Shown here: positions 19,593 to 24,438 of the stretch, in pieces
How positions within the stretch are numbered: position 1 is the first letter of the stretch
How the letters are laid out: each line of letters opens with the position of its first letter
Source: Microbacterium aurum
GTDB taxonomy: Bacteria > Actinomycetota > Actinomycetes > Actinomycetales > Microbacteriaceae
Reading direction: 5' to 3'
Length of the DNA stretch: 64,000 bases
NCBI RefSeq assembly: GCF_016907815.1
Contig: NZ_JAFBCQ010000001.1
Location: forward strand, 3,038,001 to 3,102,000
Translations under genes and position numbers: made by a program
The notes under the pieces: model-generated
Database searches by the model: none
Told to the model about the DNA's origin: nothing
The model's input: the letters and a program-made list of their open reading frames with translations, nothing else

Positions 19593-21600
19593 TCAGCGAA
19601 TCCCCACAGCGCCTGCGATATCGTCGGCAAGCATTCTCACGTAGACCAGGTTCAAGTGGTCAGCGTCATAGTAGACCGGGACACCCCCAACGACGGCATA
19701 GCAGGTGTCGACGTCACAGAAGTGATCGGTGAGGTCGACGAGGGAGACACGTTCATCGCCCATTCGGGACACGGCGGAAACTACTGGGTCGGCGGGTTGA
19801 GCTTCGGAGCGCGGCCGCGCACACGCAACAGGATCCTGAGTATTCAGGATCACACAATCCGGATCCCTGACTTCACCGTTGAATGGCGGATCCGCCATTG
19901 CAATGACGCGCGAACCGACGGACGACCATGCCGCCCAATCGGACGTCATGCCGTCGATCATCTGTTCCGCTGCCGAGCGGCCGCTGCCATCGTCGACGAG
20001 GTACTGACGCGCGGCCATACCGGTGAAGACCATCTCCGGTCGAGCCTCCTCGACGGCACCTGTCACGGCCCGACTCCATTCGCGACATCCGCTGACCTCG
20101 CCAGCGCTCAACACCGTCCGGAAGCCGATGTAGGCCACATCGGCTGGCGGGCAGTGACCGCGGTAGGCGAGCGTCACAATCCAGCCCTCTCGTCGAGCAA
20201 GCTCGAAGACTGCCCCCTGCCACTGCTGAGCGTGCGAGTCGCCTACGACCCACACGTTGCTCTTCGGACCCGATTCGTTACTGAAGTCGCAGACAATTAT
20301 GGGGACTACATCGCCACCGTGTGGATCCGGTTGTGTTGGACCGCATTGTGGGGGGTAGAAGAAGTACTCGTTGCGCTTCCCCATGTACGGCGAGTCGGCA
20401 AGGTCGAAGACGCTAGGGCAGTCCGCTGCATTGGACAGCGCATGCGGACCGTCGCACGACCCGGTTGCTAGAGGCGCGTCAGGCCTGTCTGCGGTCGAGC
20501 GCAGCGCGGATCCGATTAGGAGCCCTCCGGCACACGCCAAGACGGCTAGTACCCCGACCACCATGAGAACGATCGACCTCAGGGTGCTGGACCGCCAGAA
20601 CACCCAGTTGCGAGCCGGGTCCTCGACCAGGGCCTTTGTGAGCCAGGCGAGGACGAGTGCAATGGCGAGTAGACCGATCCTCGACAGCCCAGTGAGTTCC
20701 GTCCCCAGCACGAACGGCGCGATCACGATGATTGGCCAGTGCCAGAGGTACAACGAGTACGACACCCCGCCCAGCCACTGAGTGAACGCATTGCCAGTCA
20801 CCCAGGAGTGCGCGAGCCCGCCCTCACGAGTCCCTGCGGCGATGATAGCGGCGGTGCCGAGCACGGGCACGAGCGCAGCCACCCCAGGGAAGGGTGTCTC
20901 CGGACCGAAAGCCAGGAGACTGAAAAGGATGCCTACGATGCCGGCCACTGCCATGATGTTCGCGACAGGCTGTGGCATTCGCAGACGGGCGCCGCCCATC
21001 GCCGCGAGTATACCTCCGACCGCAAACTCCCAGCCTCGCGTGAAGGTCACAAAGTAGGCTTGGCTCGGTTCAAACTGAGTGAACACGATGCTAGCGGCTA
21101 GCGATGAGGCGAAGACCACGGCGAGCAATCCGACGACTGTCCCACGTCGCGCTGCAGTACCCCCGATGCGGGATGAGAATATCGTCAGCGCAGCGACGAT
21201 CAGGAGCGGCCACACCAGGTAGAACTGCTCTTCGACCGAAAGAGACCAGTAATGCTGCGCGACGCTCGCAGAGTCATTGAGCGCAGAGTAATTGACGGAT
21301 AGGTGAGCCAGCCACCAGTTCTCTACGTACCCTGCGCTTGCGGCGATCTCGGTGCCGTTTCGCTCCCACCGCGTGTACGGCAGGTACACGAAAACGAGCG
21401 TCGCCGATGCAGCGAGTACGAGCAGCGCTGCCGGCAGCAACCGCCGGATACGACGTGCATAGAAGGCGCCCAGCCGGATGCCACCCGTCATCACGACTTC
21501 TTTCAGAAGATGCGCGGTGATGAGGTACCCCGAGATCACGAAGAATACGTCTACACCTACGTAGCCACCGGGAAGACGCGTTGGCCAAAGATGGTTTAGG
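19593..21600 (-). pseudogene. 3' part of a broken OafA-type acyltransferase with SGNH domain
   Basis: This piece encodes most of an acyltransferase-3 membrane protein: Gly-Gly-Tyr-Val-Gly-Val-Asp-Val-Phe-Phe-Val-Ile-Ser-Gly-Tyr, about ten hydrophobic segments, Trp-Ser-Leu-Ser-Val-Glu-Glu-Gln-Phe-Tyr, then an extracytoplasmic SGNH domain with Gly-Asp-Ser-His and a final Asp-Ala-Asp-His-Leu-Asn. Such proteins acetylate surface glycans. The first 40 codons, including the conserved Gln-Ala-Leu-Arg-Ala segment, are missing here and lie at 24431-24551, beyond the ISL3 element. The frame seems open further upstream only because it reads into the insertion. Confidence 0.9.
21593..21600 (+). repeat. 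8-bp target duplication of the ISL3-family element, left copy
   Basis: GGTTTAGG here recurs at 24431-24438 next to the right end. Eight bp is the usual length for ISL3-family elements. Confidence 0.92.
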
Positions 21601-21624
21601 GGCTCTTCGGACATTCGGTGGGGG

Positions 21625-21660
21625 TCATGGGGTGAGTCCGCCGGCGGCGAGGAGCATGCG
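21625..21660 (-). pseudogene. Detached C-terminal end of the ISL3 transposase gene
   Basis: Read on the minus strand these 12 codons give Arg-Met-Leu-Leu-Ala-Ala-Gly-Gly-Leu-Thr-Pro and a stop. They complete the Asn-Tyr-Arg-Leu end of the main transposase fragment, which has the usual ISL3 C-terminus of this type. The IS110-family element lies between the two parts. Confidence 0.88.
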
Positions 21661-21676
21661 GACTCTTCTATGTGTG

Positions 21677-22738
21677 TCAAGTCGGCGTTACGGCACGGTT
21701 CAGTTGACGATAGATCCGTCGGGCGAGGTAGCGCTTGAGGCAGCGGCGGATCTCCTTGTTGGTGCGGCCTTCGGTGCGGCGTCGTTCGACGTAGGCGCGG
21801 GTGGCGGGGTCGCAGCGCATGCGGGTGACGACGGCCATGTGCAGGGCTCGGTTCAGCCGCCTGTCACCGCCACGGTTGAGACGGTGTCGGGCGGTGTTTC
21901 CGGAAGAGGCGGGGATGGGGTTGACACCGGCGAGAGACGCGAACGCGGCCTCGGAGCGGAGCCGACCGACGTGTGACCAGGCGGTCATCGTGATCGCGGC
22001 CGTCACGACACCGATGCCAGGCTCGTCAAGCAGTGTCGCCGCTGGAGTGGCATGAACGAGCGCTTCCATTCGTAACCTGTTCTCGGCGAGTTCGTCATTG
22101 AGGGCGGTCACTCGTTTGGCGAGACGGATGGCTTCGGCGCGGGCCGTAGCGGCAGCGACTGTTTCGGCCCGGGCACGCCACCGGGTGATCTCGGTGACCT
22201 GAGTGCTGGTCAATGGTCGGCGGGCGTCGATGCCGAGGTTGACAGTCCGCAGCAGCGCGGTGAGCGCGTTGATGGTGCCGGTGCGTTCGGTGGTCATGTG
22301 TTCTCGGGCGGTGACGAGCACGCGCAGAGCGGCGCGTTCACCGTCGTCGTCGCGCGGGTTCCTCAGGTGCGTGATCTCCAGCGGCAGCGCAGCTGCTGCG
22401 ATTCGGCGGGCATCAAGCGGGTCGGACTTGCCCACCCCTCGGTTCGTGCGCGCATTCATCCGGGGTGCTTCAGCGACCTGGTAGCCGGTCTGCGCGACCG
22501 TCTGCGCGAGTCGCGCCCCGTAGGAGCCGATCCCCTCGATGACCCACAAAACGTCCAGGTCCGCGCCGGTGCGCCGCCCGGCCCAGTCGATTGCGCGTTG
22601 AAGACCCGCGTGAGTGGTCGGGAACTGTGCAGTGTCGACCAGTTCTCCCAACGGTGCAGCGAGGATCGCCAGGGTATGCGTCTTCGCGTGAGCGTCGACT
22701 CCGATGACAAATGGATGGGTATGCGCGACGATGGCCAT
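21677..22738 (-). CDS. IS110-family DEDD recombinase
   Basis: The 353-residue protein has an N-terminal RuvC-like DEDD domain: Asp in Val-Ile-Gly-Val-Asp-Ala-His, Glu in Val-Ile-Glu-Gly-Ile-Gly-Ser-Tyr-Gly, and the Asp pair in Lys-Ser-Asp-Pro-Leu-Asp-Ala-Arg-Arg. A coiled-coil-like linker follows, then the C-terminal Tnp domain with Pro-Gly-Ile-Gly, Leu-Ala-Gly-Val-Asn-Pro and the Pro-Ala-Ser-Ser-Gly-Asn segment that holds the catalytic serine. These enzymes act with a bridge RNA that pairs with target and donor DNA. The ATG at 22738 gives the normal family start; a GGAG site lies upstream. The frame is intact. Confidence 0.93.
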   Translation of the reverse strand: MAIVAHTHPFVIGVDAHAKTHTLAILAAPLGELVDTAQFPTTHAGLQRAIDWAGRRTGADLDVLWVIEGIGSYGARLAQTVAQTGYQVAEAPRMNARTNRGVGKSDPLDARRIAAAALPLEITHLRNPRDDDGERAALRVLVTAREHMTTERTGTINALTALLRTVNLGIDARRPLTSTQVTEITRWRARAETVAAATARAEAIRLAKRVTALNDELAENRLRMEALVHATPAATLLDEPGIGVVTAAITMTAWSHVGRLRSEAAFASLAGVNPIPASSGNTARHRLNRGGDRRLNRALHMAVVTRMRCDPATRAYVERRRTEGRTNKEIRRCLKRYLARRIYRQLNRAVTPT

Positions 22739-22809
22739 GGCGATCGACGCTCCTTCCTTGATCTGGGAACAGGACCGGTCGCTGAGGCCGGTGCCGGACC
22801 GGGAAGGAG

Positions 22810-22995
22810 TCACTGGGACAGCTCTGTGATGGGCCACGACCCCGCGGGATCGGGCAGTCTTCTGATCAAGTCGCCAAGTGGGCCGGGACGGCGCCGGCCA
22901 CCCGCTCAGCGTGGACATGTCCGCAATGAAGACACTCCACGAGGAGGACATAGCCGGTATGAGTCACACGCCGAGCGAGGCGGCCGACACCATCC
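22810..22995 (-). ncRNA. Putative IS110 bridge RNA
   Basis: Boundaries are approximate. Read in RNA direction (minus strand) it contains a 5' hairpin (about 22970-22984), a target loop and a donor loop. Target loop: TACCGGCT at 22959-22952 equals the left target flank (23042-23035); after a CTCC/GGAG-type hairpin (22935-22946), TGCGGA at 22925-22920 is complementary to the right target flank. Donor loop: AGAAGA at 22863-22858 equals the element's right end (21669-21664); after a hairpin (22838-22851), TCACAGA at 22829-22823 is complementary to the element's left end. Guide order and polarity match those described for IS621. Expression is inferred. Confidence 0.8.
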
Positions 22996-23021
22996 TGGCA
23001 GCCGGTCCCGGACCAGCCGGT

Positions 23022-24317
23022 TCAAGACTCACAGAGCCGGTAGTTGTCGCGGTTGCGGAAGCCGCGGGCGAGGCGGCGGTGGAGTTCGATGATGCCGTTC
23101 ACTGCTTCGGTGCCGCCGTTGTTCGCCCGGCTGGTGGTGAAGTAGGCCAGGAACGCGGCTCGCCAGCGGCGGAGGGTGCGGCCGAGGCGGGCGATCTCGG
23201 GGATCGGGCAGGTGTGGAATGTGTCGACGACCTTCTCGGCGATCCGCCGCCCCTCGGCGAGGTCCTTCTGGTGGTAGGCGGAACGCAGTTGCTGGGCGCA
23301 CTGCCATGCGACGAACACCTCGTCGTGCGCGGGGTCGGCCTCGATCGCTGCCGCGAGCCTGGTCCGCTGCTTCTCGGTGAGGTTCTCGGCGCCGGCGCGG
23401 AGGATGGTCTGGATCCCGTAGAGCGGGTCGCCGGTCCGACCGCGATGCCCGAGGGTGTCTTGCTGGACGCGGCGGCGGACCTCGTCGACGGCGGCGGTGC
23501 CGAGCTTGACGACGTGGAACGCGTCCAGCACGGCCGTGGCGTCTTCGAGCTTGTCGTCGATCGCGGTCTTGTAGCCGGCGAACGGGTCAAGAGCTGCGAC
23601 CTTCACGTTCTGCCGGAACGCTTCGCCGCGTTCGGCGAGCCAGGACGCGTAGGCCTTCCCGGAGCGGCCGGGCACGAGGTCGAGCAGCCTCGCCCGCGTC
23701 TTTCCGGTGCTGTCGCGGCTGAGATCGACCATCCCGGTCAGCTCCTTCGGGCCGCGCTTTCGGGGGTCTGTGTGATGCCAGATGTGCTCATCGACGCCGA
23801 GGGTGGTGACGTTCTCGAACCGGGACTCGTCCTCAGCCAGTTTGACCAGCTCGGGCTCGACGGCCCGCCACACCGTCTTCCACGACGTTCCGAGCTGACG
23901 GGCGATACCGTGCACGGTGGCGTGCTCGCGGCGCAGCTGCCCGATCGCCCAGCCGACGGCGCGCGTGGTGATCGACCCGCGCCGGGCCACCAGACCCGGG
24001 AGCTGCTCCACGAACGTCCGTCGCACGCATCCCACCTCGTCGCACCGCCAGACCCGCTGCCGCCACACGATCCGCACCCGCGTCACGCCGGGCACATCGT
24101 GAAGCACCCGTCGGCGACGTCCGCGGCCGGTCGCGACGACCCCGCACGACGGGCAGCCGGTCGGTGCCGCCGGGCTCGAGACGGTCACGATCAGCAGCCC
24201 GTCACGGCGGTCAACGTCCTTGACATGGACCCCATCGAGGCCGAGCAGCAAGTCGCAGCGGGAACACGGGCAGGCGGCAGAGCACGCGTCAGCGCACCCC
24301 GAACTATCGTGAGACAC
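23022..24317 (-). pseudogene. ISL3-family transposase gene, C-terminus cut off by IS110
   Basis: The GTG at 24317 has a GAGGACC site. The protein shows the ISL3 pattern: an N-terminal zinc-finger-like Cys-Pro-Ser-Cys-Gly followed later by Cys-Asp-Glu-x-Gly-Cys, then Asp in Gly-Val-Asp-Glu-His, Asp in Leu-Asp-Pro-Phe-Ala-Gly-Tyr and Glu in Gly-Thr-Glu-Ala-Val-Asn-Gly, and Arg-Gly-Phe-Arg-Asn-Arg-Asp-Asn-Tyr-Arg-Leu. It then reads three residues into the IS110 element and stops. The original chain was 439 residues; only the last 11 are lost, so some activity is possible. Confidence 0.88.
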
Positions 24318-24430
24318 GTCGAGGTCCTCGGTTGGAGCAGCAGTTGGAGCTACTGATCCTCGGGGACCTCGACCCCTACCCGCCGAACCTCACCCGGCGA
24401 GCCTCACCCCCACCGAATGTCCGAAGAGCC

Positions 24431-24438
24431 GGTTTAGG
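24431..24438 (+). repeat. 8-bp target duplication of the ISL3-family element, right copy
   Basis: GGTTTAGG, identical to 21593-21600. Confidence 0.92.

Follow-up and report, generated by a model that had tools for sequence, protein, structure and literature searches.

A predicted bridge RNA in an intact IS110 element nested in an ISL3 transposase gene of Microbacterium aurum, from a clade that may share only one core base between target and donor

Bridge RNAs are established for insertion sequences (IS) of the IS110 family, and IS621 and ISEc21 are the described systems to which the element studied here can be compared most closely. In the published text on IS621 (PMC11208158), the core is CT at positions 8-9 in both target and donor, with a nearly invariant second base and a looser first base. 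According to the same text, the top strand is cut after the second core base, the bottom-strand cuts fall between positions 9* and 10*, handshake bases covary at position 7, and in the post-exchange model the guides pair with the incoming core. ISEc21, according to the text of PMC11187229, is an IS110 element that targets codons of IS3-family transposase genes, so this habit is already known. Here we analysed a window of 64,000 nucleotides from Microbacterium aurum (contig NZ_JAFBCQ010000001.1, positions 3,038,001 to 3,102,000), in which an IS110 element of 1,373 bp (21661-23033, delimited by the junctions of copies in two different genes) interrupts an ISL3 transposase gene. Guides, targets, covariation, fold, handshake pairs, and filled and empty sites could be read from the DNA. 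The region at about 22793-23017 on the minus strand very probably encodes the bridge RNA of this intact IS110-group element. It appears to be a new IS110 bridge RNA of an otherwise already known kind, from a clade whose insertions are often in transposase genes.

All features of the element and its target given below lie on the minus strand. The initial annotation had placed four short segments upstream of the recombinase gene, and all four were located exactly there, in the guide order of the published bridge RNA (text of PMC11208160). The left target guide (LTG) is TACCGGC with T as its position-8 base (22952-22959; together TACCGGCT), and it is identical to the left flank at 23042-23035 in eight of eight positions. 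The left half of the target (23034-23042) consists of TACCGGC (23042-23036), T at position 8 (23035) and the shared C at position 9 (23034), and the right half is CGCA (21657-21660); both halves are found in an empty site of an uninterrupted ISL3 (L125, see below). TGCGGA (22925-22920) is complementary to TCCGCA (21662-21657) as proposed, but the T at 21662 is a base of the element and not of the target. The right target guide (RTG) is read here as TGCGG, plus an A that pairs with this element T (22920-22925). The left donor guide (LDG) AGAAGA (22858-22863) is identical to 21669-21664 at the right end of the element, AGAAGAGTC (21661-21669), which is the left donor and whose last two bases are positions 8-9. 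Likewise, TCACAGA (22829-22823) is complementary to TCTGTGA (23035-23029), but the T at 23035 belongs to the target rather than to the element, and the right donor guide (RDG) is TCACAG (22824-22829), complementary to CTGTGA (23034-23029) at the left end.

Within the 293-nt left end, the words TACCGGCT, TGCGGA, AGAAGA and TCACAG are each present a single time. In 4,000 shuffles of this left end, the frequencies of the single words were 0.15%, 11.5%, 1.4% and 7%, respectively. Among 20,000 dinucleotide-preserving shuffles there were 18 occurrences of TACCGGCT, none of them followed by TGCGGA in the next 60 nt, and in 200,000 plain shuffles both target words appeared in order in 14, none of which had AGAAGA after them. 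Because shuffles of the left end almost never reproduce the ordered set, the guide words are not due to chance.

The genome (3.41 Mb, one contig) contains three copies of the element. The remaining two have the same sequence, with one base in 1,373 different from the window copy, and are inserted in an IS21 istB gene (PF01695, 6e-67), whereas the target of the window copy is an ISL3 transposase gene, as the initial annotation had it (matches to PF01610 and NF033550). Both targets give the same words around the C, TACCGGCT on the left and CGCA on the right. Thus neither istB copy sits in a target unrelated to the guides, the outcome that the initial annotation had named as refuting its reading. 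Since the flanks of the two istB copies agree throughout the 1,501 bp compared on the left side and for 127 bp past the element on the right side, we counted two independent insertion events rather than three. The two IS21 copies (L002 and L003), both with the IS110 element in istB, are identical over the compared stretch and may have moved together. The target guides could be checked on ISL3 as suggested, since an ISL3 of a Microbacterium paraoxydans plasmid (L125) is uninterrupted, has the predicted empty site and reads CAACTACCGGCTCCGCATGCTC. An empty istB site that is nearly identical is present on a Corynebacterium plasmid (L129), with the sequence TACCGGCTCCGCC. In the 3.41-Mb genome itself no unoccupied exact TACCGGCTCCGCA was found, and 12 sites are off by one base. 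A relative with 94% identity (L019) has an ISL3-type right flank, its left end being outside the record.

Relatives were taken from genome searches and plasmid records. They comprised 59 element records with a left end, of which 56 were usable (L117, L100 and L102 lacked anchors) and fell into 25 guide types. Copies with identical ends and flanks were merged, and counts over 25 types use one site per type, that of middle left-guide fit. Uncounted were 30 hits (29 loci) with no recognised left end, 19 of them at most 52% identical and the other 11 either 58-71% identical or cut short. L097, L098 and L099, with no recognised right end, stayed outside the 25-type counts, and their left guides match in 8 of 8 positions. 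A phylum-wide draw of 396 genomes gave no match at 1e-120 besides the element's own genome. For 23 types, the LTG matched its own flank at 5.87 of 7 positions (shuffled pairings: mean 3.2, maximum 4.4) and the RTG at 4.43 of 5 (mean 1.6, maximum 2.9), and none of 20,000 shuffles reached the observed fit of either guide, figures that are not probabilities because the guide types share descent. For the left guide, the best-fitting of three offsets was used in real and shuffled pairs alike; with all 25 types the LTG fit was 5.92 of 7. Positions 10-15 of the RTG pair in 25, 23, 20, 22, 17 and 4 of the 25 types. On the donor side, the LDG matches the right end at positions 1-6 and at position 8 in 25 of 25 types, at position 7 in three and at position 9 in none, and the RDG (TCACAG or TTACAG) stands against CTGTGA or CTGTAA at the left end. 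The donor guides vary little and give little covariation evidence.

A consensus fold of 17 left ends consists of an outer stem and two stem-loops, and the predicted bridge RNA runs from outer stem to outer stem (22793-23017). The first stem-loop (22907-22973) is target-binding and has the target guides in its internal loop; the second (22811-22880) is donor-binding and has the donor guides in its internal loop. The small hairpin that had been noted between the guides of each loop is present in this fold, at 22931-22949 and 22833-22855, respectively. For 39 of the 70 pairs, a two-sided change was observed in at least one sequence, and the single-sequence fold has a z score of -3.66. Upstream of the guides in an excised circle, TTGACA (21675-21680), which overlaps the recombinase stop codon and whose TTGAC is conserved in relatives, could serve as a -35 box, and GAGTCT (23025-23030) is a weak -10 candidate. 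The spacing from TTGACA to the GAGTCT-like hexamer is 17-18 nt and exists across the joined ends only. It is possible that they form a circle promoter spanning the joined ends, as does the one described in the text of PMC11208160.

While the four guides of the initial reading were borne out, the handshake bases at 22919 and 22823-22822 had been overlooked. In the target loop, the base after the RTG (C at 22919) pairs with element base 21663. Across the clade, all 25 types show pairing of this base with element base 7, as C:G, A:T or T:A (shuffled mean 8.8, maximum 18), and one of the 25 shows pairing with its cognate, target base 7. In the donor loop, the bases at 22822-22823 pair with target bases 23035 and 23036. 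Pairing of the donor-loop base with target base 7 was found in 16 of 25 types (one of 20,000 shuffles was as good), or 21 of 25 with wobble (none as good), and pairing with its cognate, element base 7, in two of 25. At position 7 the pairing is therefore with the non-cognate DNA. Wrong-partner pairing as low or lower occurred in 169 (target loop) and 1,318 (donor loop) of 20,000 shuffles, and in 492 and 66 with wobble. Over the 25 types the handshake bases vary along with the partner DNA, and pairs with the wrong partner are fewer than chance would give, which fits a finding in the published text that wrong-partner pairing blocks strand exchange. A tree of 23 recombinases requires at least 6 changes in the state of the main handshake pair, and at least 9 and 13 in those of the other two. 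No clear handshake signal was seen at position 6 (target loop with donor base 6, 7 of 23; donor loop with target base 6, 2 of 23).

An apparent TC/GA core of ambiguous register had been proposed; TC holds for the window copy but not for the clade, in which only the C is common. The right-end anchor patterns had demanded TC, and the reading was repeated without demanding these bases. All 56 element right ends then had T at position 8 and C at position 9, and among the left ends 51 of 52 had C at position 9. On the target side, position 8 was A in 22, T in 19, G in 8 and C in 7 of the 56 sites. Thus in 37 of 56 sites the target-side base is not T while the right side still has T (TC-demanding data set; no exception appeared without the demand), and one base is common to target and donor, rather than a shared dinucleotide as in IS621. 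Two related groups (genomes G504 and G517) insert in a dispersed palindrome-like repeat, of which 20 empty copies (9 in G504, 11 in G517) all read ATTACT-A-C-CTGACGG. In the five inserted copies read in G504, A precedes the C on the left and T precedes it on the right.

The guide bases at position 8 behaved like those at position 7. The RTG base is always A; it pairs with the element T in every one of the 25 types and with the target base in five. For the RDG base, pairing with the target base was seen in 18 of the 25 types (no shuffle exceeded 17), or in 23 when wobble is allowed (no shuffle exceeded 20). Because these guide bases pair with the partner DNA, we read one base as shared and position 8 as a handshake position. 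Such pairing is to be expected since the post-exchange model predicts it, and a shared CT could not reveal it. The published bottom-strand cuts would imply an overlap at positions 6-9, and the bases kept on each side would then follow the top strand. We lean, with reserve, towards the reading that this actinobacterial IS110 clade has a one-base shared core, that position 8 handshakes like position 7, and that inserted copies keep the top-strand base on each side. A clade-level change of the core rule is probable. No statement of a one-base or split core was found in the running text of the bridge RNA and IS110 literature searched.

To describe where the clade lands, 20 disrupted frames were searched with profiles. 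They were chosen for a readable frame, and therefore the 15 of 20 that are transposase or IstB genes (ISL3, IS21, IS481 and IS3) do not give a rate for the clade. Several of these hits were below the NCBIfam full-length cut-off because the frames are cut. One frame (L067) is an ABC solute-binding protein gene, and the profile search gave no family for four (L060, L092, L120 and L041); for L086 the frame searched was that of the neighbouring gene, not the disrupted one. Counted by guide type, at least 8 of 25 have an insertion that disrupts the transposase or IstB gene of a different IS family. L067 has ISL3-type guides and the same left word in a gene that is not a transposase gene, and because it sits in this unrelated gene, the word and not the gene family decides the target. 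Further sites include dispersed repeats, and no empty IS481 site was found in the three genomes searched. Transposase and IstB genes are abundant in mobile DNA, and an insertion into them probably costs little.

Some further patterns were observed at the target sites. For the left guide GAAGCAAT (L022, L023, L039, L059, L068, L080 and kin), target mismatches fall at the third codon base (GAG/GAA, GCG/GCC), as if changes at silent positions of a transposase gene were tolerated. The right flanks of L077, L079, L086, L105, L106 and L100 share CCCGGGTTT or CCCGGGATG-like words beside TGAA(T/C)CGC. We take these words to resemble the ends of IS3-family elements, in which case this sub-group may target IS termini. 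A left target word with TTGACA, like a promoter -35 box, is found in L116, L119, L121 and L123 and in L042, L043 and L122. Copies on the Streptomyces plasmid record differ by a few bases in the position of their left junction.

The events at the window element may be pictured as follows. In the excised circle, the promoter across the joined ends would transcribe the bridge RNA, whose ends would lie near the predicted outer stem and which the recombinase would presumably bind. The first internal loop would pair with both strands of the target TACCGGC-TC-CGCA and the second with the joined ends of the element. The DEDD/serine recombinase would then swap the two DNAs beside the core, presumably in the published order of strand cuts, and after top-strand exchange the right-hand guides would pair with the partner DNA as the handshake. 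The element may still be active.

Several observations weigh against a bridge RNA at this locus. Among the target genes, an ISL3 90% identical to the target (L126) is uninterrupted and one base off in the word, and a relative with 87% identity (L020) sits at a different site with full left fit and a right guide matching in 2 of 6. Other sites fit badly, namely L079 (left guide 1 of 8), L116 (left 3 of 8) and L069 (left 5 of 8, right 2 of 6), and the left junctions of L116, L119, L121 and L123, all on one Streptomyces plasmid, are shifted. Apart from the shared descent of the guide types, an independent-pairs test gave 1 or 2 pairs on supported branches, none contrary, too few for significance. 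A fit to a bridge RNA model, which the initial annotation had put forward as a check, was obtained with the consensus fold of relatives but not with Rfam. No Rfam family reached its gathering score in the window, which has little weight as Rfam 15 may hold no bridge RNA model, and a loose Rfam scan returned two weak microRNA models only. Alternatively, protein contacts alone could recognise the target, the guide-like words then being chance or the scar of earlier insertions. We consider that account highly improbable, since shuffles exclude chance, the words vary with the flanks at two separate sites across 25 types, the handshake bases follow the other DNA, the guide words lie inside a covarying fold, and closely related recombinases are nevertheless found with different words and sites.

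Shared targets might also have come from homology between related transposase genes that carried the element along, rather than from guide matching. Many sites of one guide type are indeed in similar ISL3 genes, and the two istB copies, given their shared flanks of 1,501 bp (left) and 127 bp (right), may be one event. Yet the ISL3 transposase and istB genes are unrelated and have the same words, the same left word marks the site of L067, a member of the ISL3-type group, in a gene for an ABC solute-binding protein, and other types are in dispersed repeats and elsewhere, so that homology is hardly credible as the source. With the bridge RNA retained, its core could instead be shifted by one base, giving CT in the donor and CN in the target. 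Many left target guides continue with CT after the variable base, and in the shifted register the two handshake bases of each loop would directly follow the shared C. In IS621, by contrast, the second core base is nearly invariant, the cut follows it and handshake covariation is at position 7 (text of PMC11208158), and it is the NC register that gives an invariant second base, fitting junctions and a signal at 7 with none clear at 6. The shifted core is thus an unlikely choice, and the NC register was kept for the bridge RNA reading.

The recombinase gene (21677-22741) is intact and encodes 354 amino acids. Its product matches PF01548 (9.5e-22) and PF02371 (1e-20), both above cut-off in the profile search, so that the DEDD RuvC-like and C-terminal Transposase_20 domains of the IS110 family are both present, and it scores 178.8 bits against NF033542, the NCBIfam model of the IS110 RNA-guided transposase (cut-off 140). 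In an alignment of 15 sequences, the catalytic residues D16, E69, D107 and D110 and the serines S279 and S280 are invariant. By counting along the alignment, S280 is opposite chain position 243 of 8wt6, which we take to be S241 only on the assumption of two extra N-terminal residues in the chain. The solved chains matched by the recombinase sequence were IS621 (36.9 bits, residues 202-349) and ISCro4 (32.7 bits). The 293-nt noncoding left end and the short right end, with the stop codon (21677-21679) 16 nt from the end, are the layout of the IS110 group rather than of the IS1111 group. The target is an ISL3 element (21601-24430; PF01610, NF033550) with readable terminal repeats, its transposase fragment being at 23022-24317. 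It is flanked by GGTTTAGG at 21593-21600 and 24431-24438, an 8-bp duplication, and it breaks an acyltransferase-3/SGNH gene (fragment 19593-21680), so that two transposons are nested in one gene. Elsewhere in the genome (C1), two further IS110 recombinase stretches, 67% similar, are found at 142816-143060 (L005) and 146466-146710 (L004), in opposite orientation and about 3.4 kb apart.

With a complete and readable set of guides, target and donor, an intact IS110 element in a high-GC bacterium, and both filled and empty sites, recombination is directly testable. If the core reading is true, target choice would be freed from the core rule, and the inserted copies would be a natural record of Holliday junction resolution. 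A one-base core, if confirmed, would also relax the design rule for bridge recombinases.

Compared with the known systems, the predicted RNA resembles that of IS621 in lying in the left end upstream of the recombinase, in the order LTG, RTG, LDG and RDG with two internal loops, and in the candidate promoter across the joined ends (text of PMC11208160), as well as in the position-7 handshake pairs and in junctions that fit the top-strand cut site (text of PMC11208158), although similarity between the recombinases is low (36.9 bits over residues 202-349). Unlike IS621 as described there, with CT in both target and donor, the donor here has TC and the target NC, only the C being common, and at position 8 the guide bases pair with the partner that they meet after exchange. 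Like REP-targeting (repetitive extragenic palindrome) IS110 elements in the text of PMC11208160, the G504 and G517 groups are in a dispersed repeat, whereas the window element is not. In the text on the ISEc21 seekRNA (PMC11187229), which treats the target matches, we found no handshake bases described. A feature shared with ISEc21, whose targets are IS3 genes, is a target within conserved transposase codons of another IS family. The host group differs from that of ISEc21, and the targets are ISL3 and IS21 for the window element and IS481 and IS3 for its relatives.
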